Assembly (NCBI RefSeq): GCF_020034665.1
Contig: NZ_JAIQDI010000001.1
Span: forward strand, 2,418,001 to 2,482,000
Direction of reading: 5' to 3'
Source of the DNA: Niabella beijingensis
GTDB taxonomy: Bacteria > Bacteroidota > Bacteroidia > Chitinophagales > Chitinophagaceae
Length of the DNA: 64,000 nt
The notes beneath the pieces are model-generated. The model searched no databases. It was not told the DNA's origin and saw only the letters and a list, made by a program, of their open reading frames with translations. Within the stretch, counting starts at the first letter, position 1. The number at the start of each line of letters is the position of its first letter. Below are positions 15,878-49,824 of this stretch, in pieces. The position numbers and the translations under genes were made by a program.

Positions 15878-16009
15878 CGTCTGTATTTTTTTTATGAAGT
15901 ACGCAGGAACTCATGAAATAACCAACCCGTTTGCAGATAAAACAGGGGGATTTGCAGAGTTTGTTTTCAGATTTTACAGCTCTACGTCAAATTTGAATAA
16001 AAATCTATT

Positions 16010-16898: not shown

Positions 16899-17981
16899 AT
16901 GGCGGAAGCTACAAGTTCTATCTATTTTAATACCGCTGCCTGTGGATTGATACCCGAAACCGTTTTGCAGGCAGGCACCACCCTGTATAAGAATTTTGAA
17001 CACAACAGCTCAGCTGCAAGCGAGCTGTGGCGCGATGTGGAAGCTGCTGTGATCCGGAAAAACACCGCCGCATTTATCGGTGCCGGTATGGAACATATTG
17101 CATTTGTTCCCAATTTTTCCTTTGGTATGAACGCAGTGGTACACGCTTTAAAGGGCGATGAAAAGGTACTGCTGTACCGGAAGGATTTTCCATCAGTTTA
17201 CATTCCATTCCTGATTAACAAATTCGATATCGTGTGGCTGGATGATGAAGACGGTTTTTTTATAGATATAGAAAAAATAAAAGATCTTATAAGAAAAGAG
17301 GGCATCCGCCTGGTGGCCATCAGTCATGTGCAGTGGCAGACCGGTTTTAAAATCGACCTGAAAACACTTTGTGACAGCTGCCGTTCGCTGGGTACCCGTA
17401 CCATCATCGATGCCACTCAAAGTATGGGCGCTGTACACATTTCGCTTTCTGAAATTCAGCCGGATGTTTGCATCTCCAGTAATTATAAATGGATGAATGC
17501 CGGTTTCGGCACCGGAATCCTGTATATGCGTCCGGATTTTGCAGCAGAATACCCGCCAAAAGTATCCGGGGCCCACAGCAACGCCTATCAGTATTCGGGT
17601 AATACTTTTTCATCCAACAACAGCGTGCTTAACTATGAACCCGGGGGATTAAATATGTACGGACTGACCATTTTAAACAGGGCTATTGAGATAAAACAGG
17701 AACGCGGGCTTGCGGCGATCGAAGCACATAATACCGCGCTTGCCCGGCTGCTGCTGCCTGAACTTCCGTCCTGTGGTCTGGACTTACTGGGACCGCCGGA
17801 TACAACCAACAGAAGTTCCATTATCGTAATAAACGATGCCGAAGGGCTGCATGATCATCTTTCTCAAAACAACATCATCACGACCCGCCGCAACGGCCGC
17901 ATCCGCATTAGCCTGCATTACCACAATACAGAAGCAGAGGTCTCCCGGTTTATCGCCAGCATAAGGGACTGGAGAAAATAA
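16899..17981 (+). CDS. class V PLP-dependent aminotransferase family enzyme
   Basis: 360 aa, cytoplasmic. Fold-type I motifs: DATQSMGAVH (D171, Q174) for the pyridine nitrogen and phosphate, SSNYKWMNAGFGTGILY with K197 as the PLP Schiff-base lysine, and a C-terminal RNGRIRISLHYHNTEAEV. The family covers cysteine desulfurases, kynureninase-like and isopenicillin-N-epimerase-like enzymes. It lacks the long catalytic Cys loop of NifS/IscS, so desulfurase activity is not evident. The substrate cannot be assigned. Its 3' end faces glpF with 39 nt between. Confidence 0.85.
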   Translation: MAEATSSIYFNTAACGLIPETVLQAGTTLYKNFEHNSSAASELWRDVEAAVIRKNTAAFIGAGMEHIAFVPNFSFGMNAVVHALKGDEKVLLYRKDFPSVYIPFLINKFDIVWLDDEDGFFIDIEKIKDLIRKEGIRLVAISHVQWQTGFKIDLKTLCDSCRSLGTRTIIDATQSMGAVHISLSEIQPDVCISSNYKWMNAGFGTGILYMRPDFAAEYPPKVSGAHSNAYQYSGNTFSSNNSVLNYEPGGLNMYGLTILNRAIEIKQERGLAAIEAHNTALARLLLPELPSCGLDLLGPPDTTNRSSIIVINDAEGLHDHLSQNNIITTRRNGRIRISLHYHNTEAEVSRFIASIRDWRK

Positions 17982-18020
17982 AGCGGCGGTTGAACGGGTC
18001 CGTTTTAAATAACCAGCAAT

Positions 18021-18728
18021 TTATACCAGTTGTTGGAATATAATTGCTGCCAGCAGGGCACCGATCAATGGTCCGAGAATAGGGATCCAGCTGTAGCTCC
18101 AGTCGCTGCTGCCTTTTTTACCGATGGGCAGGATCGCGTGCATAATGCGCGGGCCAAAATCGCGCACCGGGTTGATCGCATAACCGGTCGGGCCGCCAAG
18201 ACTCAAACCGATCGCCAGTACGATAAAGGCCACCGGCAAAGCGTCCAGCGCACCCAGGCTATTGGAGGGAGCAATAATAAACAGGACTGAAAGGATCAGC
18301 ACAAAGGTTCCGATGATCTCGGTGATCAGGTTACTGGCCGTATTCCGGATGGCGGGCCCTGTGCTGAATACCGCCAGTTTTGCTGCGGTATCATCGGTTT
18401 CCAGGAAGTGCTGCCGGTAAGCCGCCCATACGCCGAGCTGACCCAGCATGGCTCCCAGCAATTGTCCGCCAAGATATTCGGGGATCAGTGTTGGTTCTAT
18501 TTTCCCCAGGTAGGCCAAGGCCACTGTTACTGCGGGGTTCAAATGGGCGCCGCTTGCTTTTGAAGAAACAAACACCCCAACGAAAACTGCCATGGCCCAA
18601 CCCATAGCTATTACGATCCAGCCGCTGCTGTTTCCTTTGGTTTTATTTAATACCACATTGGCAACGACGCCGTTTCCCAGTATAATAAGAAAAAAGGTCC
18701 CGATCAATTCACTTGTAAAAATATTCAT
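18021..18728 (-). CDS. glpF: glycerol uptake facilitator (aquaglyceroporin)
   Basis: 235 aa from the ATG at 18728 (MNIFTSELIGTFFLIILGNG), which matches where MIP proteins begin; an upstream in-frame ATG would add 20 unlikely residues. The six-helix MIP fold has the first pore motif HLNPAVTVALAY, but the second is INPVRDFGPR instead of the usual NPA. The Arg of the selectivity filter is kept. The channel passes glycerol through the inner membrane. It follows glpK by 134 nt on the same strand, so glpKF is probably one unit. Confidence 0.93.
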   Translation of the reverse strand: MNIFTSELIGTFFLIILGNGVVANVVLNKTKGNSSGWIVIAMGWAMAVFVGVFVSSKASGAHLNPAVTVALAYLGKIEPTLIPEYLGGQLLGAMLGQLGVWAAYRQHFLETDDTAAKLAVFSTGPAIRNTASNLITEIIGTFVLILSVLFIIAPSNSLGALDALPVAFIVLAIGLSLGGPTGYAINPVRDFGPRIMHAILPIGKKGSSDWSYSWIPILGPLIGALLAAIIFQQLV

Positions 18729-18862
18729 ATCGCTTTTTTTATTAGTAAGAAGTGAGCCGCGTGAAGGAGAGATCCTAAACTGACTCATTACGAACCTGCA
18801 CGTGTCAACATGACCCCTGTTGATAATTCACGATTCGCTTTTCGCTCCTGAAATCTTAAACA

Positions 18863-20359
18863 TCAACCTTCCTCTGCCCAAACCTGTGCGGCACGTACCG
18901 CGCGTTTCCAGCCCTTGCTCAACTGTTCCCGCACGTCGTCTTTCATATAGGCCTCAAAGCGCTGATCCACCTGCCAGTATTGCTTTACTTCATCCAGGTC
19001 TTTCCAGAAACCGACTGCCAGTCCGCTGAGGTAAGCGGCTCCCAGGGCTGTTGTTTCCGTTATTTTCGGGCGTACCACCGTCGTGTTTAATAAATTCGCC
19101 TGGAACTGCATCAGGTAGTTGTTCACGGTAGCGCCGCCATCTACCCGAACTTCTTTGATCTGCAGTCCTGCATCCGCTTCCATTGCTTTTAATACATCCA
19201 TTGTCTGATAGGCGATGCTTTCTATTGCGGCACGTGCAATATGGCCATCGGAGCTGCCACGGGTAAGCCCGGTGATGATGCCCCGTGCATGCTGGTTCCA
19301 GTAAGGCGCGCCCAAACCGGTAAAGGCCGGAACCATATACACTCCGCCATTGTCGGTTTCCGTTGCAGTAAGGGCCTCGATATCGCCGGATTTCTGAATC
19401 AGTTTTAGTCCGTCGCGCAGCCACTGCACCACGGCACCGGCAATAAATACGCTTCCTTCCAGCGCATAGCTTACTTCATTATTGAGCTTCCATGCAATGG
19501 TGGTAAGCAGGTTATTTTTTGAGGGCACCGGCTTATTGCCTGTATTCATCAGCATAAAGCAACCCGTGCCGTAGGTGTTTTTTACCATCCCAGACTGGGT
19601 GCACATCTGTCCGAACAAGGCTGACTGCTGATCTCCGGCAATACCGCTCACCGGTATCTGTGCCGCAGTAAGCAATTGCTGGGTATGGCCATAGACCTCA
19701 CTGCTGGAGCGGACTTCGGGCATCATGCTGAGCGGGATACCGAACAGCCGCAGCAATTCTTCATCCCACTGCAGGGTATGGATGTTATAGGCCATGGTCC
19801 GGGAAGCATTGCTTACATCCGTGGCATGTACTTTTCCATTGGTCAGTTTCCATAGCAGCCAGGAGTCGACGGTACCGAAACAGAGATCGCCGTTCTGTGC
19901 TTTTGCTTTGGCCCCCTCCACATTTTCCAGTATCCACCTTATTTTCGTTGCAGAAAAATAGGCATCTGTAACAAGCCCTGTTTTTTCCCGGATAATATCG
20001 GCAGATCCGTCTTTTTTCAGCGCATCACAATAATCCGAGGTACGCCGGTCCTGCCATACAATGGCGTTATAAACCAGTTGGGACGTCTTCCGGTCCCAAA
20101 CCACGGTGGTCTCCCGCTGATTGGTAATTCCGATGGAAACAATATCCTGCGTCGTAAGTCCGGCCTTTACCACCGCTTCTGTGGCCACCCCCAGCTGGGT
20201 AGACCAGATCTCATTGGCATCGTGCTCTACCCAGCCGGGCTGGGGAAAGATCTGGGTGAATTCCTTTTGAGCAACAGCAACAATGTTACCAGCTTTATCA
20301 AAAATGATCGCGCGGGAGCTTGTTGTTCCCTGGTCGAGGGATAGAACATATTTTGGCAT
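18863..20359 (-). CDS. glpK: glycerol kinase
   Basis: 498 aa, the normal GlpK length. FGGY-family kinase that phosphorylates glycerol to glycerol-3-phosphate. The N-terminus reads [20 protein letters not shown] (phosphate-1 loop); later [46 protein letters not shown] and [19 protein letters not shown] complete the signature. The start at 20359 is chosen over 20365 because it aligns with other GlpKs. Together with glpF, glpD and the phosphodiesterase gene it channels glycerol into glycolysis. Confidence 0.97.
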
Positions 20360-20534
20360 ATACAATCTTGTTTATAAAAAAGTGAATATAAAAAATTCTG
20401 TTTATGAGCAGGCAATAAATTTAAAAAAATCAATCCGCACAAATCCGTTAATGATGTCCTTCTTCTATCGTGGCCGGTTCATTTTAAATCGTTCTGCTCT
20501 GTTAGCCAGGGGCGGCAGGCCTGCAGAGAAATAT

Positions 20535-21548
20535 TTACGGATGCGTACATTCATGAAAATGATCTCCTGCGGGATAGCTGAATGTGTTTACCAGCTTCCA
20601 TCTTGCCTTATATAATCCTATAGAAGTATTTTTATATACTACGGCGCCATTAATATCCAATACCTGGTCCGTTCTCCATGATTCGCCGCCAGCACCGTTT
20701 GCTTTTGCAATAATCGTTTGATAACCGGATGGCCCGGAAGTTACAGATTTAACACCACTGGTGGCTTTTATCAAAGTAAAAGCGCCTGTGGTCACGTTGA
20801 ACCTGTAAATATTTCCTGAGTTGGTCAGCCAGAGATCTGTGGTGCTACCGTATACAGGAAACAGTTCATGCGCATTACCCTGAGGCATTGTATAGGTTGC
20901 TTTAAGCGTGAGCTTCGGAGCGGTGCAGCTGCCGTTATACGTGAACACTTTCAGCTTGTCTTTCCCCGCAGCGTATAATTGCTGACGGGCATGATCCCAT
21001 ACTACATTATGTACATCTTCAAATGTTGCAGCCTTTACCTGGCTGGATTGGTCATTAATATAAGAATCCACGGTGAATATCATCAGGTAGCCCCCGGTGG
21101 TGGAGGCCGTTACCACATTGCCATTGGGCAATAACTCTGCAGAATGTGTATTACCCCCCGCATAGTCGTACCAGATCGCTTTTTTACTGGATACGCTGAT
21201 GAGGGCCACACCGCCTCCTGATGCTGTTGCCAGAATATAACTGCCGTTATAAACCAGTTTGGCATCGCTCAGGTTGGAAAACCATGCCTGCGCCGCACTG
21301 TGTATCATGGCATAGGAACCGGAAGCCTTCCATTCCCATGTGATCTGGTTGTTGTTGGCGATATCCACCATAATGATCCGTGCATTTTTCTGATCACAGA
21401 TAATCATTTCTTTTGGTGTGACCGCTAAAGCGGCGGCAGCCAGTTTCGAAGATGGTTCCCTGCTTGCTACGGGGCCTCTCAGATTGTTATTCGTTTTGTT
21501 GCAGGCTGCTGTAAACAGCATCATTACGGCGATAAGCAATGGTTTCAT
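20535..21548 (-). CDS. DUF6528-like lipoprotein (beta-propeller)
   Basis: 337 aa. MKPLLIAVMMLFTAAC is a lipoprotein signal, Cys16. The mature protein repeats WD/propeller-like strands (EMIICDQKNARIIMVDI; ITWEWKAS; KLVYNGSYILATASGGG) and ends GDHFHECTHP. This looks like DUF6528, a Bacteroidota surface-lipoprotein family without known activity; the call is by pattern. It starts 23 nt after the phosphodiesterase gene, so it probably belongs to that transcript and may bind the substrate at the cell surface. Confidence 0.6.
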   Translation of the reverse strand: MKPLLIAVMMLFTAACNKTNNNLRGPVASREPSSKLAAAALAVTPKEMIICDQKNARIIMVDIANNNQITWEWKASGSYAMIHSAAQAWFSNLSDAKLVYNGSYILATASGGGVALISVSSKKAIWYDYAGGNTHSAELLPNGNVVTASTTGGYLMIFTVDSYINDQSSQVKAATFEDVHNVVWDHARQQLYAAGKDKLKVFTYNGSCTAPKLTLKATYTMPQGNAHELFPVYGSTTDLWLTNSGNIYRFNVTTGAFTLIKATSGVKSVTSGPSGYQTIIAKANGAGGESWRTDQVLDINGAVVYKNTSIGLYKARWKLVNTFSYPAGDHFHECTHP

Positions 21549-21571
21549 GTTTGAAGGGTTTAGCGTAAAAA

Positions 21572-22483
21572 TTATTTTAACTGGTAAAATAAATCCGGGT
21601 AATCTGTGATCACTCCGTCCGCGCCCATATCTGCCAGGTTCTTTATGATCCCGATCTCATCGGCCGTCCAGGGCACGATCTTCATATTTTTCTGATGGCA
21701 TTCCTTTACCAGCTGCGGTGTAACGATCGAGTAGTGCGGGCTATAGTATTCCGGTACATAGCCCAGGCTTTTCAGCTGCTCATCGAGGCTGCGTTTTTCT
21801 TTATCGCCGATCAGAAGCGAGGTTTGTACCTGCGGATATTTTTCGTGCATTATTTTCAACGCCCGTTCATCAAAACACTGGATGATCATGCGTTTTCCGA
21901 TATTGAAAGGCAATATCGTCTGCATGGCCAGATCCGTAAATTCCGCTACAGGCGGACAGGAAACCCCTTCTCCTTTCGGGTTGGATTTTATCTCGATATT
22001 GTATTGGATCTTTACCCCTTTCTTATTTGCGTAGGCCTCCGTTGCCGTCAGCAGGTCTTTTAGCAGTGGCTTTACAGCCGCCATTTTCTTCTGACGCGGA
22101 ACGGCCGCATAAAACTTTTTGCCTACATCATATTTTTTTATGGAATCATAGGTCATGGTGTACAGGATCCGTTTCTTTGATTCAGCCGGGGTCAGCGTAT
22201 CCCCCTCGGGGGTGGTTGTAAACCCGGCATTGAAAGCGGCATCATGCGATACCACGATCTGCCCGTCCCGCGTTACCTGCATATCCATTTCCAGTGTGGT
22301 TACTCCCATGTCTATGGCATTCAGCATTGCAGGAATGGTATTCTCCGGCATCAGTCCCTTGCCGCCCCGGTGTGCTTCCATATCAAAGTGTTTATACTTT
22401 GCCGGAAGTTCAATTTTTTTTTGTGCGCTGCATGCCGCCACCGTAACCAGCCATACCGTTGTGCATAGTAATCTACTTTTCAT
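21572..22483 (-). CDS. glycerophosphodiester phosphodiesterase
   Basis: 303 aa with a signal peptide ending in AAC-S (probably lipid-anchored), so it acts in the periplasm or at the surface. GDPD motifs: EAHRGGKGLMPENTIPAML (catalytic His and PENT), TTLEMDMQVTRDGQIVVSHD (metal-binding E/D and second His), YNIEIKSNPK (Glu) and MGADGVITDYPDLF at the end. It cleaves glycerophosphodiesters to glycerol-3-phosphate plus an alcohol. It follows the GDSL hydrolase gene by 1 nt (translational coupling). Context with glpF, glpK and glpD supplies the route for its product. Confidence 0.95.
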   Translation of the reverse strand: MKSRLLCTTVWLVTVAACSAQKKIELPAKYKHFDMEAHRGGKGLMPENTIPAMLNAIDMGVTTLEMDMQVTRDGQIVVSHDAAFNAGFTTTPEGDTLTPAESKKRILYTMTYDSIKKYDVGKKFYAAVPRQKKMAAVKPLLKDLLTATEAYANKKGVKIQYNIEIKSNPKGEGVSCPPVAEFTDLAMQTILPFNIGKRMIIQCFDERALKIMHEKYPQVQTSLLIGDKEKRSLDEQLKSLGYVPEYYSPHYSIVTPQLVKECHQKNMKIVPWTADEIGIIKNLADMGADGVITDYPDLFYQLK

Positions 22484-22484
22484 G

Positions 22485-23180
22485 TTATAAATATTTTCCT
22501 TCTTTTAAAATTTTCACCCAGCGTTCGTATCCTTTTATATTCAGGTGCAGTCCGTCATAGGTAAGTGTTGGGTCCAGTTTACCATCCTTTAGAAAATGCG
22601 GATGCAGATCGATCACCGTGATGCCCGTTTCTTTCCCCAATTTCTTCAGCCCTTCATTTACAGCAGCGATGTGTGCATCTTTTCCGTAATGGTTTTTCTT
22701 TGGCGGGATATCGCTGTTCACCGGCAATACCGTCTGAAAATAAATTTTTGTAGCCGGGCTTTCGGTTTGCAGCTGGCTGATAATGCGTTTGTAATTGTCA
22801 AGGATCACTGCATCCGGAACATTGCGGGAAATATCGTTGGTGCCGATAAGGATAAACACTTTTTGCGGTTTTCCTTCCGTCACTTCATGCAGGCGTTCCA
22901 GCACACCAAACGTAATGTCACCACTGATACCCCGGTTCCGGGCATCGGGGTTTTTCAGCAGTTCCGACCAGTCCACACCAGCCGTGATGCTGTTGCCAAG
23001 GAAAATAATATCCTTTGAGGAATTGGGAAAGGCATTGAACTGGTCCACCCGCAGTTTATAACTTCCGGGACGGTAAGTACTGTCCCAAGTGGGGGACTGG
23101 GCGTTACTGTGAGCAGCGCCAAGCATACTGCCTACAATAAGGCAACAGCTTATTGCTTGTTTTAATTTGAGTTTCATCAT
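22485..23180 (-). CDS. secreted SGNH/GDSL hydrolase
   Basis: 231 aa with a signal peptide (ending AAHSNAQ). SGNH blocks are intact: IIFLGNSITAG (block I, nucleophile Ser), NRGISGDITF (block II, Gly), LIGTNDISRN (block III, Asn) and TYDGLHLNIKGYERW (block V, Asp and His). The family contains esterases and lipases. Coupled by 1 nt to the glycerophosphodiester phosphodiesterase, it could remove acyl groups before diester cleavage, although sugar O-acetylesterases share the same fold. The fold is certain; the substrate is an inference. Confidence 0.9.
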   Translation of the reverse strand: MMKLKLKQAISCCLIVGSMLGAAHSNAQSPTWDSTYRPGSYKLRVDQFNAFPNSSKDIIFLGNSITAGVDWSELLKNPDARNRGISGDITFGVLERLHEVTEGKPQKVFILIGTNDISRNVPDAVILDNYKRIISQLQTESPATKIYFQTVLPVNSDIPPKKNHYGKDAHIAAVNEGLKKLGKETGITVIDLHPHFLKDGKLDPTLTYDGLHLNIKGYERWVKILKEGKYL

Positions 23181-23272
23181 TTTTCTTTACTGTTCTTTTA
23201 TTAATCAACAGAAGCAGCAATACAAGACAAGAGGTACAAGGTGAGCGGCTTTATCCTTCTTGTGTCCTGCTT

Positions 23273-23785
23273 TTATCCTGCTTCGTTTGTAAATAGGAAT
23301 TCCATAGGATCACTGACATCTTCTCCGCATTCATTTTTAATTATACAATCAAATACATAGTCGCCAGGCGGAAGAGCTACAGGAAACAGGTAATTACCAC
23401 TCTTTGAAAAATTGTGGATTGTCCCCGAACCCATAAAATTGAAGGTTGGCCCATTTTCGTAAATCGAATATTCGAGTATATAGGTACCACTTCCCGTAAA
23501 ATTCATATTAAAATTGTTGTACTGGGTAACCTGATTATATTCTATGTTCATGCTTATAAGACTCGCCCAGGTAGTTCCACTACAGTCTGAATCCGAAACC
23601 ACTCTAGTTAAGTTATTTAATTTGCTTTCCCTAAAGTTTCTGTCGTACGATTTTTGTACTGCTCCCCGTAAATGAATATTTTTTGTCGGAGCTATAGTTT
23701 TTTCTGCTCTTGTAAAAGCTGTAAGACTAACAAATGCTATCAGCAATATAAAAATTCCGATTGTAATGGTTCTTGTTTTTTTCAT
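23273..23785 (-). CDS. small exported protein of unknown function
   Basis: 170 aa. An N-terminal hydrophobic helix (9-25) is followed by a Ser/Asn/aromatic-rich beta-type sequence (NMNFTGSGTYILEYSIYENG) and a tail ending in two Cys-containing strands (FDCIIKNECGEDVSDP). No family is recognised. It appears visibly more A+T-rich than the neighbouring enzymes. Its place between the SusCD-associated lipoprotein and the GDSL hydrolase, on the same strand with gaps of 67 and 92 nt, suggests membership of the same locus. Confidence 0.65.
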   Translation of the reverse strand: MKKTRTITIGIFILLIAFVSLTAFTRAEKTIAPTKNIHLRGAVQKSYDRNFRESKLNNLTRVVSDSDCSGTTWASLISMNIEYNQVTQYNNFNMNFTGSGTYILEYSIYENGPTFNFMGSGTIHNFSKSGNYLFPVALPPGDYVFDCIIKNECGEDVSDPMEFLFTNEAG

Positions 23786-23852
23786 TTTTTTAGGTTTAAA
23801 GTAAACTAAAAATCTTGGGGTATATTAAATGAATAATAGTCCCCCTGCATTA

Positions 23853-25502
23853 CTATTCTACTATTCTTGTAATTAGCGAATCATTGGGGCCGCCGCGATC
23901 ATTTTCTATATCGGCAATAGTAGCTGCTACATGACCATCTTCTGTTTTTTGAAACAGTTCTATTACAACCTGTTTCCTGGCAGTAGTCCACCGGCCCAGG
24001 GTAATATTATATACGCCACCCATCATACTGAACAAGCCAGCATCAGCTTTCGACGGGTCGGGGTGTGCTGCATTTACCGGATAGGGCATATTGGTGGTAT
24101 TTCCAGCTGAACGATAATGTAAATACGGTACTATTACTGGTTTATAGGTGTCCGGATCGATGGCTATGGAGTACATGGAGTACCAGTCGTTATTACAAAT
24201 ACGATATCCCTGTATCGGGTTTTTGGAAGGGTCGTAGAGACCCGTGTTTCCTCCCGAGGCAATAAATAAAACGTCTTCGGGCACTGACGCTTCTGTAACC
24301 GAAGTTCCTTTAAACAAAGCTACACCACAGGCATTCCCGCTATTGGCAAAAGGGCCGCTTTCGGTAAATACGCTGGTTCGAACAAGCCCTCCATCGCCTG
24401 GATTGGTCGGTCCCCCCTTTACATTCAGATAAGTTTTTCCATACCAATTAGTTTCTTCGGGGAAAGAAACAGTACCTGCGTTTCCATTAATTTTCCTGTT
24501 TTGGAAGCCAAAATAAAAAAACTTCCCTTTAAGCGCAGTACCCGATGTAATATCCCATTTAATAGTACGTTTACCACCAGTGGCCCACCCAGCATCCAGC
24601 GTCGTAGGAGTAGAGGCTCCTGCATTGTTGCAAAATACAATGCTGTATGGAGTAACCGAAAAGTCAATATCTCTGGTCGCCATTATTTGTACGTATTCAT
24701 TCCCCCCATCTCCACCTTTAGGATCGCTCTGAATACCAGTAATAATCAAATCCTGCGCTGAAGTTCCCATGTCAACGATATCATCCCCTTCTCTTGTCCT
24801 CAATTCTACGGATCCATCGGTCTTTTTGAAGGGGATGCCTACATACGCCGCTAACATTAAAGGGGTGTTATTTGCGTGGGCTGCATTTGGATCGGTATAA
24901 AGCGTAAGGTCGCCAAAACCATCATTGATATTTTTAGCACCGCTGATCACATCGCCCGGTTTGGGGGCCGGGTTAAGGCTGGATTTATTAATAATGCAAA
25001 GCGAACTTTCATAAATATCCGGGTTGGCCAGCAATTGTGGTACAGTGATGGAGTTGATACCAACAAACCCCTTCCCCTTAGGTATGATCTTGGACACCGG
25101 TATACCTGTAATAGTTAAAATACCATTTTTACGGGTCAGGGTGCTCCCGATAATATCGATCATCAACGAATCTCCGGGATGATAATTAGCTGCAGCAGCA
25201 CCCATGTCTATTGAAATACCTCTTATTGTGTTGAGGCGGCGGCTATCCTGGACTATCAGCAGACCTTCCGGAATATTCCCGGCAGTATGATCTGATACAA
25301 CTACTGCTGCCAGATTTGTAGCACCATAAACACTTTCCTTGGTAATGGTTATATCCTGCCCTTTATACAAAGGGCGTACATCCAGAACGGAAACCACCTC
25401 GTATGGTACTCCTCCCGGATAATTTTCGTAGGTATTTTTGGTACAGCTATTAATGGTTATACCTACGCTTAGTACTAAAAAAAGATTGAATATATATTTC
25501 AT
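23853..25502 (-). CDS. DUF5689-like surface lipoprotein
   Basis: 549 aa. Lipoprotein signal with the Cys in TINSCTKN (residue 20). Residues ~35-240 (DVRPLYKGQDITITKESVYG, GLLIVQDSRRLNTIRGISID, VSKIIPKGKGF) fit DUF5689, a beta-barrel domain often found in third genes of SusCD operons. The second half is beta-rich and resembles a carbohydrate-binding or choice-of-anchor type module. It follows susD by 66 nt. The likely role is surface ligand binding, in the place SusE/SusF take in starch loci. Confidence 0.75.
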   Translation of the reverse strand: MKYIFNLFLVLSVGITINSCTKNTYENYPGGVPYEVVSVLDVRPLYKGQDITITKESVYGATNLAAVVVSDHTAGNIPEGLLIVQDSRRLNTIRGISIDMGAAAANYHPGDSLMIDIIGSTLTRKNGILTITGIPVSKIIPKGKGFVGINSITVPQLLANPDIYESSLCIINKSSLNPAPKPGDVISGAKNINDGFGDLTLYTDPNAAHANNTPLMLAAYVGIPFKKTDGSVELRTREGDDIVDMGTSAQDLIITGIQSDPKGGDGGNEYVQIMATRDIDFSVTPYSIVFCNNAGASTPTTLDAGWATGGKRTIKWDITSGTALKGKFFYFGFQNRKINGNAGTVSFPEETNWYGKTYLNVKGGPTNPGDGGLVRTSVFTESGPFANSGNACGVALFKGTSVTEASVPEDVLFIASGGNTGLYDPSKNPIQGYRICNNDWYSMYSIAIDPDTYKPVIVPYLHYRSAGNTTNMPYPVNAAHPDPSKADAGLFSMMGGVYNITLGRWTTARKQVVIELFQKTEDGHVAATIADIENDRGGPNDSLITRIVE

Positions 25503-25568
25503 CAGTGATTTTTTTTATTTCCTTTAATACTCCGACAATCTTCCCGCATTAGCAGAACTCTTCTGTTA

Positions 25569-27140
25569 TTATGGCTTTTGCCACCATACATTGGTATTGA
25601 TCTGATCAACCCCCTGTGCCGCCACGGCTGCTTTATAATTAGTCGGATTTGCAGATTGCACATAAACAGGATATACCAGACGTGCCGGCATCACGCTATT
25701 GTTTTGCAGGCCTTTTAACTGATCCAGATGTAAATTCGGATATCCTGTCCGCCGGTACTCAAACCACTGCTGCAGATCCGTCAGGAACAGGGCATAGTAT
25801 TTCTGTCCATGTATCAGTTCCATCTTTCTTTCCGGAGAAGTATTATCATCCCAGATAACGCTGCCGGCAGCAAGGTTCTCAAGGTGTGTGGCGAAATTGG
25901 TAGAATTAACATCTTCCGGAAAATCGGGTACCCAATAATTGATAGCAGACGCCATGCCCTGATAAAAATAGTCTTTTGCATCACCTCCGATCCATCCCTT
26001 AAGTGCTGCTTCCGCCAGTATAAACTGAACTTCGGCATACTGCATGATAATCCCCGTCCGCGGATTTTGCTGCAGTGACCAAACCCCGCCAGTACTGGTA
26101 TTATCATAGCTTTGGAAATAACATCCTTTCTCCTGACCCTTACCCGGTTCATATCCACTTGCCACTCCGCGCCATCCGCCGCCGCTTGCCTGCGCAATAC
26201 CCAGGCGGCCAATAGAGCCCGATCCATAAGGTTTTGCTGATGTCAGCCGGGGATCCGACCAGGTATTCAAACTATCCAGGAAATAACTGCAGATTGCCGG
26301 AGATCTGAAGTCCTGTACACGGATATTGTATACATACGGTGAGGTATAAGGATCAGTGCTGCTTACATCCCCAGTCCAAAGTACTCTTGCACAATCGGCG
26401 TTACTGGTCATAATAGGATAGTTTGCCGGATTTTCAACAATCGCTTTTATTTTTTCCTGGCATTGCTGTGCCACTTCAGCCTTTCCGGATATACGCAGCA
26501 GCAATCTTAAGTACAACGAATTCCCGAGTTTTCTCCATTTTGAAATATCGCCGTTGAAAACGGGATCACTCGACAAAACGATAGGCGTATTACCTGCCAG
26601 CAACTCATTGGCTTCTTCCAATTTATTAAACATTCCTTGATAGATATCTTTTTGCCGGTCAAAAACAGGTTGCACATTTCCCTGTTTTCCGCCAAGCGCC
26701 TCCTTGTAAGGGATATCACCATATGTATCTGTTAAGTTGGCAAACAGCCATGCCTCGCAAATGCGGGCAATTCCCTGATAGGATGTATTGATTTTACCGC
26801 CACTGCTTGCCAGGCTGTCAACGCTTCTGAAGTTGGTAAGTTGTACATACCAGGAATTCCATAAATAGTCCGACTGGCTTGCCCTGAATGCATACCGGAA
26901 TACGGTATTTTCTCCATCGCTTAAACTCACCGTAACCTGCATCAGTTCGTTTGTAAAGCTCCTGTTCCGGCTCATACCCGGCCAGATCGAGTTCACCAAT
27001 GCCGGTGCCAGTAATTTATCCGAAGAGGTCTCTAGTATATTAATAGGATCTATATTCAACTTTTCGAAACCCTTCTTACATGAATAGAGCGTTGATACCA
27101 TCAACAAAGCAAGGCCTGCAATAAGTAGTTGTTTTTTCAT
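25569..27140 (-). CDS. SusD/RagB-family outer-membrane lipoprotein
   Basis: 523 aa. Lipoprotein signal with Cys21 (LYSCKKGFEKLNIDP). It is of the SusD-like type common in Chitinophagaceae, with TPR-helix regions and typical GIARICEAWLFANLTDTYGDIPY (residues around 120) and MQYAEVQFILAEAAL (around 365). It forms the lid over the SusC transporter and captures ligand. It begins 10 nt after susC. The ligand cannot be read from the sequence; the locus suggests a glycerol-phosphate compound. Confidence 0.93.
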   Translation of the reverse strand: MKKQLLIAGLALLMVSTLYSCKKGFEKLNIDPINILETSSDKLLAPALVNSIWPGMSRNRSFTNELMQVTVSLSDGENTVFRYAFRASQSDYLWNSWYVQLTNFRSVDSLASSGGKINTSYQGIARICEAWLFANLTDTYGDIPYKEALGGKQGNVQPVFDRQKDIYQGMFNKLEEANELLAGNTPIVLSSDPVFNGDISKWRKLGNSLYLRLLLRISGKAEVAQQCQEKIKAIVENPANYPIMTSNADCARVLWTGDVSSTDPYTSPYVYNIRVQDFRSPAICSYFLDSLNTWSDPRLTSAKPYGSGSIGRLGIAQASGGGWRGVASGYEPGKGQEKGCYFQSYDNTSTGGVWSLQQNPRTGIIMQYAEVQFILAEAALKGWIGGDAKDYFYQGMASAINYWVPDFPEDVNSTNFATHLENLAAGSVIWDDNTSPERKMELIHGQKYYALFLTDLQQWFEYRRTGYPNLHLDQLKGLQNNSVMPARLVYPVYVQSANPTNYKAAVAAQGVDQINTNVWWQKP

Positions 27141-27150
27141 TTTAATAAAG

Positions 27151-30100
27151 TTAAAATCCGATTGATAAATTAAACCCTACAGTGCGTGTAGAGGGGAACT
27201 GTCCAACTTCAAACCCTGTAACAATATCTGATCCGCTTAATGTACCAAATTCCGGATCGAAAATGGGCCAGGGCGACCAGATAAACAGATCGCGTCCGTA
27301 AATACCGATCATCGCGGAACTCAAACCTATTTTCTTCAAAAGCTTTGGTTTAAACGCGTAGTTTAATGATGCTTCACGAAACTTGATAAAGTCTGTACTG
27401 AAGGTGCTTCCTTCTGCATTCAGCGATCCCATGCTATTTTGATAATACTGGTCGATATCATATGCTACCACATCATTTTTTCGGTACCCTGTAACATTGC
27501 CGTTCTTGTCGAATATCTCCAGTACACCGTTTCCAACAATACCATTATACCTTCCCGGAAGGGTACTTTTCAGTTTTCCCTGTTCAACCATTTTATAGTG
27601 AGTAAGCGAATATCCCACTGCGCCGGCCTGCGCGTCAAACAATACTTTTAAGCTCAGTTGTTTATACCTGAATGTGTTGCCCAGGCTCATTTTATATTTC
27701 GGAGTTGTATTTCCCAGGTAAATAATGTTGCTGGTAATTTTCGGGAAGCCGGTTGCCGGATCAAAGATCACCTGGCCGTCCGGGCTGCGCTGATATCCAA
27801 GACCGTACAAATCACCCATACTACCACCAATCGTAGCTACGATCTGGCCGCTTGCTATCTGTCCGGAGCGGAGCAAAACAGTGCTGTCGGGCATGGAAAT
27901 GATTTTATTTTTATTTGATGCAAAAGTGGCCGTCACCTCCCAGTTAAATCCATTGCTGTTTACGATGGGTTTTCCGTTTAGCGATAATTCAACACCACTG
28001 TTGTTCACCCTTCCCGCATTAATTACAGCTGCATCATAGCCGGAAGACCGGTCAACGGTTCGCGTCAGTATCTGATTCTTTGTGTTTCCCCAGTAAACCG
28101 CCAGATCAAATCCCAGGCGGTTTTTAAACAGCTGAACCTCCGTTCCCAATTCAAAGGTCGTGGTTTTAAGCGGTTTCAGATTGTCATTTGGTAAGGTCCT
28201 TGGATTGGATACGGCACTATCAGGATATATCCCGTTATTCCTGGAAACAGGATAGGTGTAAGCCGTCCGGTAAGGTATCGTGGCACCGCTTCCTACCTGA
28301 GCAATAGAGGCCCTTAGTTTAGCATAGCTAATAAAGGTTGGTAATTGAGTGAAATCAGACAATATAAAGCTGGTGTTTAATGAAGGATAGAAAAAGCCCA
28401 CATTATCCGTTCTGTTCGCCGTGGCCAGAACACTGTTCCAGTCCTGCCTTCCGGTTAACTCCGCAAACAGATAGTTCTTGTAGCTAAAATTCACAATCCC
28501 GTAAACACTGTTGATCTGGTAACGGCTGGTATCAGGAAAATAGGTCAGCCCGTACAGATTATTATCCAGATTGTACATATCGGGATAAGGTGAGCCATTG
28601 AGGGAGTCGGGGAATTTTAAACCATCGGCCCTGACATCGGTCTTGTTGTATTCGTTCCTCAGCTGGCTTCCTCCTAAAGAAACGCCAAACTTAACATCAT
28701 CCGACAGGTCTTTATGGTAGCGGGCAAGAAAGTCATAACTCATTTCCCGGGCATAGACATTCTGCTTTCTTACCGATCCGAAAGGCAGCCGCGAGCCGGC
28801 ATCATAAGGACGATCCTGTTCCCGCTTATCGTTCGACCAATCCAAACTTCCGCGTACCATAAAGCTCAGTTCTTTCGTAAGCTGGTAATTTAACTGCACA
28901 TTTCCCGTTACATTATTTCTTCTGGTCTTATTCAAAAATTCATTTACAATCGCAAATGGATTCTCCGGATAAGAAGAATAAGGATAACGGATCCTTCTGT
29001 ACATACTGTCGGAGCTATAGATGCTGCCCGGGGCGCCCATCCAGTAATTTCTCAGCCAGTTATAATCAGCGTTGGGTTGCCAGAAGATGTACCAATACAT
29101 CAGCGACTGGTTGCCGTAACCGGCAGACGGAAGATTATTGCTGGACCTGTAACCATAGTTCACTTTAGTAGACAACTTTAGTTTTTTCGTAATGTCTGTA
29201 CTCGTTGTAAGACTTGCTGATTTACGATCGAAGCCGGTGTTGGGTACCACCCATTTGTTATTTTGTATGGCTCCGGAAACGCGGAAGGAGGTCGTTCCGA
29301 TCCTGCCGCTCAGGCTTAAGTTGTTTGTAAGATTTCTCCCGACATCCCAGAAATCATTGATGTTGTCGTAAGCTACCCAGGGGGTGCGTTCCAAACCCAC
29401 TGCCTGCCGCACCGGATCATACTGAAAAAATGATTGTCCGTCAAATTTTGGTCCGTATGCTGAACTGGTACCACTGGTGCTGCTGCCATCTGCCGAAGCA
29501 CCATAAGAGTAATAAAGAGCGCCATCCAAGCCCTGGCCGTATTCATATTGCAGATCCGGAGACCTGTTTATTGACTCCAGCGATCCGTTTGAGGTAAACC
29601 GGACACTTAATTGTCCTTTCTTTTTTGCGGCAGCAGATTTGGTCGTGATAATAATAGCACCGTTCGCTCCTCTTTGTCCGTACAAAGCAGCTGCAGCAGG
29701 CCCTTTTAGTACCGATACGCTTTCGATATCCTGCGGGTTGATGTCATTCAGCGAGCTCCCGTAATCTGCAGGCAGGTTGTCGCTGCCCGTAGCATAGACA
29801 TTATCGGAGGCATTTGCCGAACGTTTCCCACTGCTGTTATTGATCACAACTCCATCTACAACAATGAGTGCCTCGTTATCGCCGGTAAGGTTGTTCTCTC
29901 CACGAAGGATGATTTTGTTGGATCCTGCCGGACCAGAGCCGGAACGTATCAGATTCAACCCCGCCACTTTACCGGAAAGCGCATCGGTCCAGTTAGAGGA
30001 CACGGCATCTGTCAGCTGCGTGCTATCGATCTTAGTGAGCGCATACCCTAAGGATTTTTCCTGCCGCTTAATTCCCAGGGCCGTAACAACCACTTCTTCT

Positions 30101-30432
30101 TCCTGTTTGCCTACTTCTTCTAGCACCACATTTATTGTCGACTCTCCATCCGCTCTGCGATCCTCATCCTTATACCCGATGGCCGAGAAGGTTAGTGTTT
30201 CTCCCGTTTTCACAGCAATTGAATACCGGCCTTCATCATCCGTTGCGGTTCCTCTCGAAGTACCTTTTACCACAACCGTTGCCTTGGAAACAGCCGAGCC
30301 GGTTTCCTTTGAAGTAACCCTTCCGCTTATCGTCTTTTGTTGCGCATGCACAACAAAAGGGATACACCACAGGCAAGCCAAAAGCAGCAGTATTGTGGTA
30401 AGTTTCGTTTTGTGGATTTTTAATTTTCCCAT
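27151..30432 (-). CDS. SusC/RagA-family TonB-linked outer-membrane transporter
   Basis: 1093 aa. Signal peptide (ending VVHAQQ), a carboxypeptidase-regulatory-like domain (ISGRVTSKETGSAVSKATV, 35-53), a TonB-box-like EEEVVVTALGIKRQEKSLGY, a plug domain (LIVVDGVVINNSSG; GPAAAALYGQRGANGAIIIT) and a C-terminal barrel ending TVGFNLSIGF. Full length. It imports a ligand across the outer membrane with the adjacent SusD. No anti-sigma/ECF pair or hybrid two-component sensor, the usual regulators of SusCD loci, is visible; the DeoR-type gene at 32731 is the nearest regulator. Confidence 0.96.
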   Translation of the reverse strand: MGKLKIHKTKLTTILLLLACLWCIPFVVHAQQKTISGRVTSKETGSAVSKATVVVKGTSRGTATDDEGRYSIAVKTGETLTFSAIGYKDEDRRADGESTINVVLEEVGKQEEEVVVTALGIKRQEKSLGYALTKIDSTQLTDAVSSNWTDALSGKVAGLNLIRSGSGPAGSNKIILRGENNLTGDNEALIVVDGVVINNSSGKRSANASDNVYATGSDNLPADYGSSLNDINPQDIESVSVLKGPAAAALYGQRGANGAIIITTKSAAAKKKGQLSVRFTSNGSLESINRSPDLQYEYGQGLDGALYYSYGASADGSSTSGTSSAYGPKFDGQSFFQYDPVRQAVGLERTPWVAYDNINDFWDVGRNLTNNLSLSGRIGTTSFRVSGAIQNNKWVVPNTGFDRKSASLTTSTDITKKLKLSTKVNYGYRSSNNLPSAGYGNQSLMYWYIFWQPNADYNWLRNYWMGAPGSIYSSDSMYRRIRYPYSSYPENPFAIVNEFLNKTRRNNVTGNVQLNYQLTKELSFMVRGSLDWSNDKREQDRPYDAGSRLPFGSVRKQNVYAREMSYDFLARYHKDLSDDVKFGVSLGGSQLRNEYNKTDVRADGLKFPDSLNGSPYPDMYNLDNNLYGLTYFPDTSRYQINSVYGIVNFSYKNYLFAELTGRQDWNSVLATANRTDNVGFFYPSLNTSFILSDFTQLPTFISYAKLRASIAQVGSGATIPYRTAYTYPVSRNNGIYPDSAVSNPRTLPNDNLKPLKTTTFELGTEVQLFKNRLGFDLAVYWGNTKNQILTRTVDRSSGYDAAVINAGRVNNSGVELSLNGKPIVNSNGFNWEVTATFASNKNKIISMPDSTVLLRSGQIASGQIVATIGGSMGDLYGLGYQRSPDGQVIFDPATGFPKITSNIIYLGNTTPKYKMSLGNTFRYKQLSLKVLFDAQAGAVGYSLTHYKMVEQGKLKSTLPGRYNGIVGNGVLEIFDKNGNVTGYRKNDVVAYDIDQYYQNSMGSLNAEGSTFSTDFIKFREASLNYAFKPKLLKKIGLSSAMIGIYGRDLFIWSPWPIFDPEFGTLSGSDIVTGFEVGQFPSTRTVGFNLSIGF

Positions 30433-30981
30433 TTTACTGATTGTTTTAAAAAAAGTCTTTAAACAGTGATCTCTTCGGGTCTATCGTTACAATACCCATA
30501 TAGTCCGCTCAGACGCTTACCCAATGGCCGATCAAAAACGGTCACCCCTGTATCTTTAATTTTTTATTTTCCTGTCAATTCGTATCTGCCCGCCTTCCCT
30601 TATTGCATACTCCGTCCACACTCTTCCGGGTAACACATGTGCTACCTGTTCTCCGGGGTACCGGAGTTTCTGATAGCAAACCGTTTTATGTAAACAGTTG
30701 CAGCCATTGGTTGCCTGGCAATACAGCTGGCAAACCTGCTACACAATGATGATGTGAGATTTACAACACGATCATATAAGGATTGTCCCCACCTTGTTCT
30801 ATACAACAAAGCGCATTCAATTTTCCCTTGAAGGTTTTGCGTCTTTAAAAAAACGCAACGGGGGCCCAAATATAGAGCGCCCTCTGCATGTGTTTGATAC
30901 CATTTGACGTTGTTAACGAAAACATAATGTAGCGCCTTCGTTACGATGCAAAACAATCGATTCATATGGCATTTTTTTTCG
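30433..30981. other. 549-nt leader/intergenic region between glpD and susC, no gene
   Basis: No credible coding frame. On the minus strand it contains a -7-like TATATTTG at 30867-30874, a GCGT/ACGC hairpin with an A/T-rich core just after it (about 30839-30856), and CTCCGG-TACC-CCGGAG further down (about 30651-30666). If transcription begins near 30860, susC would have a leader of roughly 430 nt. Confidence 0.5.
30867..30874 (-). promoter_or_regulatory. candidate -7 element for susC
   Basis: TATATTTG on the minus strand, exact match to TAnnTTTG, between glpD and susC. No clear -33 partner. Confidence 0.4.
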
Positions 30982-32547
30982 TTATTGTAAAATATATTGC
31001 TGTGCAAGTCCGTTAAATCGTTTTACTTCTTCTGTAACCCAATGCTCATCCCGGTTCAGCTCCTGCGCCATAATTCCGGCAACCGCTGCACTGATCCGGA
31101 TACTTTCCCGCGCATCCAGCAGCAATGCCCTTGTTCTCCGCGCCAGCACATCTTCCACGGTACGGGCCATTTCATGGGTAACGGCCCATATAACCTGCGC
31201 TTTATTTATTTTTAACGACTCACTGATCCAGTGCCCGTTACTGTTGGCTTTGATGTCCGGCGCATCGCTTCCATAAAAATAAAAGGGGTCGCTCCAGTCC
31301 ACTCCTTCTGCAAAACCATGGATGCGCAACTGCGGTGTTCTTGAAGTCGTTGCAGGCCAGCCGAGCTTTTTCTCCACACTGTCCATCATATCTTCTCCCA
31401 TTTTTCGGTAGGTGGTCCACTTACCGCCAATGATGGTAAAGAGCCCGCTGGGAGTGATCATGATCTTATGACTGCGCGAAATCTCTTTTGTTTTTTGTGC
31501 ACCTTCCTTTGGCGCTGCCAATGGTCGCAAACCGGCAAATACACTGAGCACATCGCTACGGCCTGGCTTTTTTTTGAGATAGGTGCCCGCCGTTTCCAGG
31601 ATAAACTCGATTTCTTTTTCGAGGGGACGGGGCTCAACAGAAGGCGCACCCACCAGGGTATCCGTAGTGCCCACCACCACCTCGTTATGCCAGGGTACGG
31701 CAAACAATACACGCCCATCCGTGGTTTTGGGGATCATCAGCGCATGGGAAGAAGAAAAAAAGGATTTATTTAAAACCAGGTGGATGCCCTGACTGGCAAC
31801 AACACTTTTTGCCGCGGAAGGGTTATCCATTCGCAGGATGTCATCTACAAAAACACCGGTAGCATTGATAACGGCACGGGCCTGTATGGTATAGGTTTCC
31901 GACCGTTCTGTATCTTCCACTACCACCCCTCCGGGTTTTTGGGCAGCGTCCTTCTTCAGGCCGGTCACCTTCATATAGTTCACCGCAACACCACCCTGCT
32001 CAATAATCGTTTGTGCCAGGTTTAACGCAAGCCTTGAGTCGTCAAACTGCCCGTCGTGATACAGCACACCACCCACAAGGCCTTTTTGGCTGACATCCGG
32101 CACCGCTTCAATGGTCTTCTTTTTTGAAATGAAAACGGAAGACCCCAGGGACAGGCGTCCCGCAATCCAGTCATAGGCCTTTAATCCGATGGTATATTTC
32201 AGCCGGTCCCAAAATGAATATACCGGTACAATAAAAGTTTGGTTCTTCACAAGGTGGGGCGCATTCTTTTGTAACAAGCCTCTTTCAATGCTGGCTTCGC
32301 GTACCAATGCAATATCTCCCTGCGCGAGGTAACGAACACCGCCATGCACCAGTTTGGTGCTCCGGCTGGAAGTACCCTTGGCAAAATCATATTGTTCGAG
32401 CAGCAAGGTCCTGTATCCGCGGGTTGCGGCTTCCAGTGCGATTCCCAGCCCGGATGCTCCGCCTCCGATCACCAGCACATCCCAAACCACCCCCGTCTGT
32501 GTAGCTGCCTTTACCAATTGATCCCTGTCAAGAATACCATTATTCAT
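30982..32547 (-). CDS. glpD: glycerol-3-phosphate dehydrogenase (FAD, aerobic type)
   Basis: 521 aa. Oxidises glycerol-3-phosphate to dihydroxyacetone phosphate at the inner membrane and passes electrons to quinone. The FAD-binding start VLVIGGGASGLGIALEAATR (residues 24-43), then LLEQYDFAKGTSSRSTKLVHGG and VRYLAQGDIALVREA, are diagnostic. Near the middle are IPKTTDGRVLFAVPWHN and TDTLVG; IGGKWTTYRKMGEDMMD comes late, and a C-terminal DAO_C helical domain follows. Divergent from the DeoR-family gene, which probably regulates it. Confidence 0.97.
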   Translation of the reverse strand: MNNGILDRDQLVKAATQTGVVWDVLVIGGGASGLGIALEAATRGYRTLLLEQYDFAKGTSSRSTKLVHGGVRYLAQGDIALVREASIERGLLQKNAPHLVKNQTFIVPVYSFWDRLKYTIGLKAYDWIAGRLSLGSSVFISKKKTIEAVPDVSQKGLVGGVLYHDGQFDDSRLALNLAQTIIEQGGVAVNYMKVTGLKKDAAQKPGGVVVEDTERSETYTIQARAVINATGVFVDDILRMDNPSAAKSVVASQGIHLVLNKSFFSSSHALMIPKTTDGRVLFAVPWHNEVVVGTTDTLVGAPSVEPRPLEKEIEFILETAGTYLKKKPGRSDVLSVFAGLRPLAAPKEGAQKTKEISRSHKIMITPSGLFTIIGGKWTTYRKMGEDMMDSVEKKLGWPATTSRTPQLRIHGFAEGVDWSDPFYFYGSDAPDIKANSNGHWISESLKINKAQVIWAVTHEMARTVEDVLARRTRALLLDARESIRISAAVAGIMAQELNRDEHWVTEEVKRFNGLAQQYILQ

Positions 32548-32574
32548 TTCCGCTTTCCTCCGATTGTCTTTAGT

Positions 32575-32614
32575 TTCGAACCCTTATCTTTCCAATAAAA
32601 CAAAACATTTCGAA
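32575..32614. promoter_or_regulatory. paired TTCGAA motifs between glpD and the DeoR-family gene
   Basis: GTTTCGAAC (32573-32581) and TTTCGAAA (32608-32615) are two palindromes with centres 34 bp apart in the glpD leader or promoter. E. coli GlpR half-sites also contain TTCG, so these are candidate operators for the divergent DeoR-type repressor. They are not seen in front of glpK, which weakens the case. Confidence 0.3.
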
Positions 32615-32694
32615 AGCAATAATAACGTTTTTTTAATTAAAATGAAAAAATTCATAATAATTTAATAAGCAGATATAAGTTTCCTTTTATTTCT

Positions 32695-32725
32695 TTTGAA
32701 AAAGCAGCCGGAAACGCTACTTTTG
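32695..32725 (+). promoter_or_regulatory. promoter of the DeoR-family gene
   Basis: TTTG at 32695-32698, a 19-bp spacer and TACTTTTG at 32718-32725 match both Bacteroidota promoter elements at ideal spacing. The ATG follows 6 nt after the -7 element, so the transcript should start at or beside the start codon (leaderless mRNA). Confidence 0.75.
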
Positions 32726-32730
32726 ATTGC

Positions 32731-33501
32731 ATGAGCAGTCTAATTGAACGTCATCAACATATAATGGACTCCCTGAAGCAGAAAGGAATGGTTCAGGTAC
32801 TGGATCTTTGCCAGGAGTTGGATGTTTCATCCGTAACCATTCGAAAGGACCTGCAATTCCTGGAAGATAAAAATCAGCTTTACCGGACGCACGGCGGAGC
32901 CACACTCACCAATCCTTATATTGGCGACCGGCCGGTTGTTGAGAAAGTAGGAATTCAATCGACAGAAAAGGAAAAAATCGGCCAATATGCGGCCGGATTA
33001 GTAGAGCCCAACGATTGTATCCTGATCGCATCGGGTACCACGGTTTTTTATTTTGCAAAACACATACAACCAAAAGGAAATGTAACCGTTATCACAGCGG
33101 CACTGAATGTGGCCATGGAAATTGCCCATCATCCGGGTATAGAGGTCATACAACTGGGGGGTATCATGCGCAAAACATCCTCATCCGTTACCGGTGTTTA
33201 TGCCGAAAAGATCCTGGAAGATTTCTCCTGCAGCAAGTTGTTCCTGGGCGTTGACGGTATTGATCTCGAATTCGGGCTGACCACTACCAATATGATGGAA
33301 GCGCAGCTGAACCGGAAAATGATCGCCGCTTCCCGGAAGACCATTGTACTGGCCGACTCCAGCAAATTCGGGAAAAGGGGCTTTGGAAAGATCTGCGGAC
33401 TGGACGATATCGAGCAGATCATTACAGACAGCAATATATCCCCCCACCTTGTAGAAGAGCTAACCGCAAGAGGGGTTGAGGTAACCGTACTGCCGGTTTA
33501 G
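32731..33501 (+). CDS. DeoR-family transcriptional regulator (probable glycerol-locus repressor)
   Basis: 256 aa. The N-terminal DeoR winged helix-turn-helix (RHQHIMDSLKQKGMV, LCQELDVSSVTIRKDLQFLE, THGGAT) is followed by the sugar-phosphate-sensing DeoR_C domain with ASGTTVFYFAKHI, VIQLGGIMR, FLGVDGID and ADSSKFGKRGF. Members bind a phosphorylated sugar; GlpR binds glycerol-3-phosphate. The divergent arrangement with glpD supports a GlpR-like role. The family call is firm; effector and targets are inferred. Confidence 0.93.
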   Translation: MSSLIERHQHIMDSLKQKGMVQVLDLCQELDVSSVTIRKDLQFLEDKNQLYRTHGGATLTNPYIGDRPVVEKVGIQSTEKEKIGQYAAGLVEPNDCILIASGTTVFYFAKHIQPKGNVTVITAALNVAMEIAHHPGIEVIQLGGIMRKTSSSVTGVYAEKILEDFSCSKLFLGVDGIDLEFGLTTTNMMEAQLNRKMIAASRKTIVLADSSKFGKRGFGKICGLDDIEQIITDSNISPHLVEELTARGVEVTVLPV

Positions 33502-33518
33502 CCCAGCTTTATCCACGA

Positions 33519-49711: not shown

Positions 49712-49824
49712 GGTTGCAATAATTGCCATAATTGGTGTTTTATAAAGTTAAGAAGCAGGTTCTGTTTTATTTTTCCAATCATCGCCAAACTCAAACAAAA
49801 AGAAACCATAAATGTACCCTGCTC

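Follow-up and report, generated by a model that had tools for sequence, protein, structure and literature searches.

What does a SusC/SusD pair import when it sits inside a set of glycerol-catabolic genes? The question is raised by a locus of Niabella beijingensis, located at positions 18,021 to 33,501 of a 64,000-nucleotide stretch of contig NZ_JAIQDI010000001.1 (positions 2,418,001 to 2,482,000; hereafter the window, to whose numbering all coordinates refer). Ten open reading frames (ORFs) follow each other on the minus strand in the order glpD-SusC-SusD-DUF5689-170aa-GDSL-GDPD-DUF6528-glpK-glpF, GDPD being a glycerophosphodiester phosphodiesterase, and a DeoR-family regulator gene (32731..33501; HTH_DeoR/DeoRC) lies divergently from glpD on the plus strand. 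This arrangement of ten co-directional genes and a divergent DeoR-type regulator, which the original prediction had read from the DNA, was borne out by the ORF list and by family scans. The locus proves to be genuine and conserved, a variation on the SusCD nutrient locus that, to judge from its gene partners, most likely serves glycerophosphoesters. We consider it likely, if not assured, that a system for scavenging glycerophosphoesters has here been grafted into the glp genes of glycerol catabolism.

The linkage of SusCD and glp genes is far above chance. We searched 195 Chitinophagaceae genomes for relatives of the window SusD (E ≤ 1e-60; 45 matched) and of glpK (E ≤ 1e-120; 118 matched). 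In 12 of the 39 genomes having both, the window genome included, a SusD relative lies no more than 10 kb from glpK, where copy numbers and genome sizes would predict 0.24. A single glpK copy was found in the 6.6 Mb host genome.

The comparison of neighbourhoods drew on 40 of about 20 kb, on another 20 stretches that with few exceptions centre on glpK, and on 79 named loci that a genome scan supplied. The SusD places outside the window were covered at 42 of 57 by 41 stretches. The 20 further stretches were chosen by hand, mostly as top-scoring glpK places away from sampled SusD genes, with the glpK of genome G189 and the SusD of G175 added, and several were short contigs. The scan retained the best 80 of 239 candidates, from which the 79 loci derive, and its query alignment included glp-linked members; for both reasons the locus frequencies given below are not a random sample. 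Counts refer to 116 distinct loci after removal of five duplicate rows; nine of the 116 rows have a flank shorter than 7.5 kb and were scored as unlinked when nothing was seen. Neighbouring genes were called by tblastn with proteins of the window and its relatives, so distant versions can be missed.

The stable unit across these loci is SusC-SusD-DUF5689, with DUF5689 present in 111 of the 116. The trio has a GDPD nearby in 51 loci and a phosphatase of the MetallophosN/C type (MetPhos; confirmed on representatives by PF16370/PF16371) in 61, including 40 of the 51 with GDPD. The glycerol-3-phosphate transporter GlpT (TIGR00712 at 729 bits, over the cut-off, in the one representative scanned) is nearby in 17 loci, 15 of which are among the 51 with GDPD, and an NPP-type phosphodiesterase in 3. 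GDSL genes, found in 38 loci in all, accompany 36 of the 51 GDPD loci against 2 of the 65 others. Some trios have ECF/FecR genes (ECF, extracytoplasmic function) in their neighbourhood instead. Of the 116 loci, which include the window's own, 31 are glp-linked; of these, 26 carry GDPD compared to 25 of the 85 others (Fisher p 1.6e-7, relatedness not removed).

In Pedobacter, a common order is SusC-SusD-DUF5689-MetPhos-GDPD-(GlpT)-GDSL. Variants of this type have glpD in front (L166, L168) or glp genes and a regulator on the other side (L156-L158, L131); L131, from a record titled Flavobacteriaceae bacterium, is laid out as in Pedobacter (L156-L158), and the record may carry the wrong name. The locus of Flavisolibacter longurius (L173) has the full set, glpD-GlpT-SusC-SusD-DUF5689-MetPhos-GDSL-GDPD-glpK-glpF. 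Because several related genera show this combination too, the importer most likely takes phospholipid head groups or glycerol-phosphate polymers.

Close relatives had been named as the place where an absence of linkage between glp genes and SusCD would count against the idea. We compared seven other loci of the genus Niabella (L038, L041, L051, L101, L102, L103, L106), and since glpD lies upstream of SusC in all seven, with glpT intervening in L041, the linkage holds within the genus; beyond it, the nearest relatives are mostly unlinked. GDPD is kept in six of the seven, as is glpK; the L041 genome has its glpK on another contig (L099).

The genes at both ends of the window cluster are those of glycerol catabolism, and glpK, glpF and glpD of the glp regulon thus occur together. 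The glycerol facilitator gene glpF (18021..18788; MIP family) encodes the glycerol-type NPxRD motif, glpK (18863..20365; TIGR01311, 737 bits against a cut-off of 590) a glycerol kinase, and glpD (30982..32547; DAO/DAO_C) a glycerol-3-phosphate dehydrogenase. glpK is annotated as starting at a TTG, but translation more likely begins at the ATG two codons further on, at 20359. Between these ends, the tandem susC-susD of a nutrient locus of the polysaccharide-utilisation type is represented by a SusC/RagA TonB-linked transporter (27151..30432; TIGR04056, 560.9 bits, over the cut-off) and a SusD-like lipoprotein (25569..27140; SusD-like_2, PF12771, 324 bits). They are followed by a DUF5689 lipoprotein (23853..25502; PF18942), whose closest matches are Niabella sequences (85%), a secreted protein of 170 residues (23273..23785), a GDSL/SGNH hydrolase, putatively a deacylase or esterase (22485..23180; Lipase_GDSL_2, signal peptide read by eye), a lipoprotein-type GDPD (21572..22483; PF03009, nearest solved relative by sequence 3ch0) and a DUF6528 lipoprotein (20535..21548; PF20138) predicted to form a β-propeller. 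The GDPD has all of the motifs HR, EN, ExD and HD and the GDSL protein has GNS, GTND and DGLH. Lipoproteins had been predicted, correctly, but as two: by a cysteine-containing lipobox read by eye, four of the ten products are lipoprotein-like (SusD, DUF5689, GDPD and DUF6528).

These genes do not by themselves make the complete route from a diester to dihydroxyacetone phosphate that had been proposed. GDPD yields sn-glycerol-3-phosphate, GlpF carries glycerol and GlpT carries glycerol-3-phosphate. The GlpF of the window is expected to serve glycerol only, and GlpT was not found in the window genome, where the four matches, to proteins of the major facilitator superfamily, had 24-27% identity and at best 52.5 bits (24%). 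A phosphatase from outside the locus is therefore needed. The locus has no phosphomonoesterase gene, and a search of the genome for the MetallophosN/C enzyme gave no close relative, only one match of 25% identity and 28.5 bits. The genome does encode a PafA phosphatase elsewhere (782.7 bits), which probably bridges the gap between GDPD and GlpF; dephosphorylation followed by GlpF, GlpK and GlpD would be the economical route in this genome. According to a study of Flavobacterium johnsoniae, PafA of that species is constitutive and highly active toward phosphomonoesters, and the wild type can use phosphoglycerol as a phosphorus source (PMC8812569).

On this basis, we picture the pathway as follows. 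SusC, SusD and the DUF5689 lipoprotein would capture a glycerophosphate-bearing compound and bring it through the outer membrane, the GDSL enzyme might strip an acyl or ester group, and the lipoprotein GDPD would cut the diester into sn-glycerol-3-phosphate and an alcohol. Glycerol and phosphate would then be released by a phosphatase from another part of the genome, most probably PafA, and dihydroxyacetone phosphate would be formed from the glycerol by way of GlpF, GlpK and GlpD. Expression of glpD and of the regulator gene itself is probably repressed by the DeoR protein, which would act on operators containing TTTCG.

Several observations weigh against this interpretation. No glp, GDPD, GlpT, MetPhos or NPP gene was seen at 40 of the 116 SusD loci. 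Outside Niabella, neither glp genes nor GDPD accompany most of the SusD proteins that come closest to the window one (about 70% identity; from Niastella, Longitalea and others); several of these have ECF sigma/FecR genes at the locus, and one (L037) has NPP and MetPhos. Within Niabella, L051 is without GDPD. Once relatedness is removed, the glp-GDPD signal keeps its direction but becomes borderline: of 12 independent pairs with support, 6.8 have GDPD tracking glp and 0.6 go the opposite way (median p 0.039, range 0.004-0.5). The trio of one genus lies, in three loci (L044, L045, L049), upstream of genes for a sigma factor, GH127 (GH, glycoside hydrolase family), ribulokinase and L-arabinose isomerase, families that were scanned on L044 only. 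F. johnsoniae is reported to be unable to use the carbon of phosphoglycerol despite its PafA (PMC8812569). Finally, no operator of the glpD type was found upstream of SusC (8.6 bits at best in the gap and 5.1 in a conserved block, against 18.4 at glpD), so SusCD and glp may not be co-regulated.

The SusD tree requires at least 18 state changes in glp linkage over the 107 rows with full flanks, and since the nearest relatives outside Niabella are also mostly unlinked, glp linkage is a changing trait. So many gains or losses would fit an insertion of SusCD beside glp genes without any functional tie, retained by hitch-hiking. We regard this as very improbable, given the repeated association with GDPD, GDSL and GlpT and the presence of distant SusCD types in the same gap between glpD and glpK (L067, L069 and L100, with SusD identities of 40%, 39% and 36%). 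Glycerol gene sets also exist without SusCD: glpD, glpK and glpF are found with no SusC/SusD match in seven stretches of about 20 kb each (L086, L087, L089, L091, L092, L094, L095), so that SusCD looks like an addition to the glp genes. L096 is intermediate, with glpD-GDPD-glpK-glpF and a distant SusCD pair about 3 kb downstream.

The arabinose genes just mentioned would also suit an importer of a sugar or glycolipid, for instance galactosylglycerol, with the glp genes merely using the glycerol released. In L046, GDPD and glpK are separated by a GH36 melibiase gene, and a GH92 gene is next door to the cluster in the window and in three other Niabella loci. Nevertheless, Pfam found no carbohydrate-active enzyme, neither glycoside hydrolase nor polysaccharide lyase, among the ten window genes, and it is GDPD and GlpT that recur across the 116 loci (glycosidases were not counted across all of them), which makes a glycan or glycolipid ligand improbable. 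The cluster resembles the polysaccharide utilisation loci of Bacteroidota in combining, on a single strand, a SusC/SusD pair with lipoproteins and hydrolases, but differs in that phosphodiesterase and glycerol genes take the place of glycoside hydrolases or polysaccharide lyases.

The frequent MetallophosN/C-type phosphatase (61 of 116 loci) and the few NPP-type phosphodiesterases (3 of 116) raise a further possibility, namely that phosphate scavenging is the main job and glycerol carbon a by-product, in which case the ligand could be any phosphodiester, including nucleic-acid fragments. A precedent exists in the PusCD complexes (PUSI-IV) of F. johnsoniae, SusCD complexes encoded beside phosphodiesterase and phosphomonoesterase genes and induced by phosphate depletion (Lidbury et al. 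2020, PMC8115612). In that paper, their ligand is inferred to be organophosphorus, and PUSI is suggested to serve lipid head groups and nucleic acids. The window SusCD is like PusCD in adjoining a phosphodiesterase, the GDPD, and its relatives share GDPD and MetPhos neighbours at the frequencies given above. Unlike PusCD, which responds to phosphate depletion, the window cluster is embedded in glycerol-catabolic glp genes beside a DeoR regulator, a setting that in this clade points to carbon use, and the locus lacks a phosphomonoesterase gene. Its SusD belongs to PF12771 (PF14322 scores 16.7 bits, below the cut-off of 27), whereas the same paper lists PusD1 and PusD2 with PF07980/PF14322; this difference weighs little, since these families may not define all PusD proteins, which are overall called polyphyletic there. 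Given its carbon-catabolic setting and a SusD domain differing from those of PusD1 and PusD2, we do not file the locus as a PUS, and we judge phosphate scavenging as its main job rather unlikely.

The preferred reading, glycerophosphoester scavenging for carbon, also has a parallel in Escherichia coli. The glp regulon of that species comprises glpTQ, glpFK, glpD and GlpR. Like it, the window has a GDPD, a facilitator, a kinase, a dehydrogenase and a DeoR-family regulator; the E. coli regulon has GlpT, which some relatives share (the 17 loci counted above), whereas none was found in the window genome. Neither SusCD nor DUF5689 or DUF6528 is known to belong to the regulon in E. coli. Among the papers listed in searches of the open-licence literature, none describes a SusCD-glp locus, which does not imply its absence from print. 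SusCD pairs are usually taken as glycan importers, as is also noted in PMC8115612. The SusCD family described here keeps company, in several genera, with genes that point to glycerophosphoesters, and it is tied to catabolic genes rather than to phosphate starvation. A direct prediction is that these Bacteroidota use phospholipid head groups or teichoic acid as carbon.

The accessory proteins gain a testable context from this setting. DUF5689 is predicted to contain two OB-like folds (about residues 36-146 and 147-246), followed by a C-terminal part resembling DUF4876 and lamin tails; a sequence search for solved structures returned none up to E 1. A fold search with DUF6528 gave, among its best 50 rows, WD40-type and other propellers and no enzyme lead. 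Since it was matched in only 10 of the 195 family genomes, we regard DUF6528 as accessory; no paper on it was found in the open-licence literature. Among solved proteins, 26 sequences are related to the window SusD; most bear the name SusD homolog or are SusD-type glycan-binding proteins, and none is named for a phosphate ligand.

A DUF5689 protein of Riemerella anatipestifer, RA0C_RS04920, is essential for natural transformation, according to PMC8459023. It shares the DUF5689 domain with the window protein and adjoins a predicted outer-membrane protein whose carboxypeptidase regulatory-like domain is of a type seen in TonB-dependent receptors. It differs in its role in DNA uptake, its predicted location in the fimbrium and its combination of DUF5689 with DUF5017, and its neighbour is not described as a SusCD pair (PMC8459023). 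A nutrient-uptake accessory protein is thereby linked to a domain of a protein required for DNA uptake. One might speculate that phosphodiester backbones are bound at the cell surface by DUF5689, acting as a receptor with two OB folds in tandem, the backbone being DNA in natural transformation and polymeric glycerol phosphate (teichoic acids) at SusCD loci, and that Niabella and Pedobacter feed on wall or membrane polymers of Gram-positive bacteria through SusCD, with GDPD cutting in the periplasm and glycerol burnt through the embedded glp operon; we hold this to be unlikely, if worth stating. The open-licence literature gave no paper on Pedobacter, GlpQ and teichoic acid together.

NCBIfam does not allow the regulator to be named GlpR: the closest model there, AgaR, scores 248 bits and so misses its cut-off of 260. 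We built an operator matrix from 19 TTTCG sites picked by hand in regulator-glpD regions of loci outside Niabella; having been trained on TTTCG words, it leans towards TTTCG. Its top score in the window (18.4 bits) is a candidate DeoR operator at 32603..32621 on the minus strand, and the second (17.4 bits) lies at 32674..32692 on the plus strand, both between regulator and glpD; the third-best match, at 49793 (17.0 bits), is outside the locus. As an operator common to glpD and SusC, the pattern ATTATNNYTTTCGNNA was tried and rejected, with 4 genome matches, one being the source glpD site, against 6 for the reversed control.

A gap of about 550 bp separates glpD from SusC and one of about 170 bp precedes glpK. 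Two blocks in the former (~30910-30928 and ~30845-30880, together 30845..30928, minus strand) are conserved in four Niabella loci, and one in the latter in three of four; given these gaps and their conserved blocks, the ten genes may not form a single transcript. The second block of the glpD-SusC gap holds TATATTTG, which resembles a −7 element of the consensus TAnnTTTG; it may serve SusC as a promoter of its own, and SusCD may be under separate control. Scans for sigma-70 promoters and terminators were at shuffle level (27 against 28.9 and 18 against 17.5, respectively), and an Rfam search of 17900-33600 at gathering thresholds gave no match.

Some observations concern single genes or loci. 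The 170-aa protein matched no family and, among the compared loci, is shared by just two others, both of Niabella (55-57% identity). In L081 (3400-4300), the order is glpD-MetPhos-GDPD-glpK-glpF and the start of SusC runs into a piece resembling the end of DUF5689, as if the SusC-SusD core had been deleted, or through misassembly. Downstream of the trio in L055 (11909-19248), a GDPD gene is flanked by two large genes whose products look, by eye, like TonB-dependent outer-membrane receptors of another type. L186 has DUF6528 directly after glpD, with only a glpK-like match of 22 residues between them and no SusCD match in the short stretch. The GH36 melibiase gene of L046 spans 14528-16693. Beyond the regulator of the window and convergent with it, the GH92 gene lies at 33519-35810 (PF07971, 599.5 bits), and it occupies the same place in the Niabella loci L101, L102 and L106.

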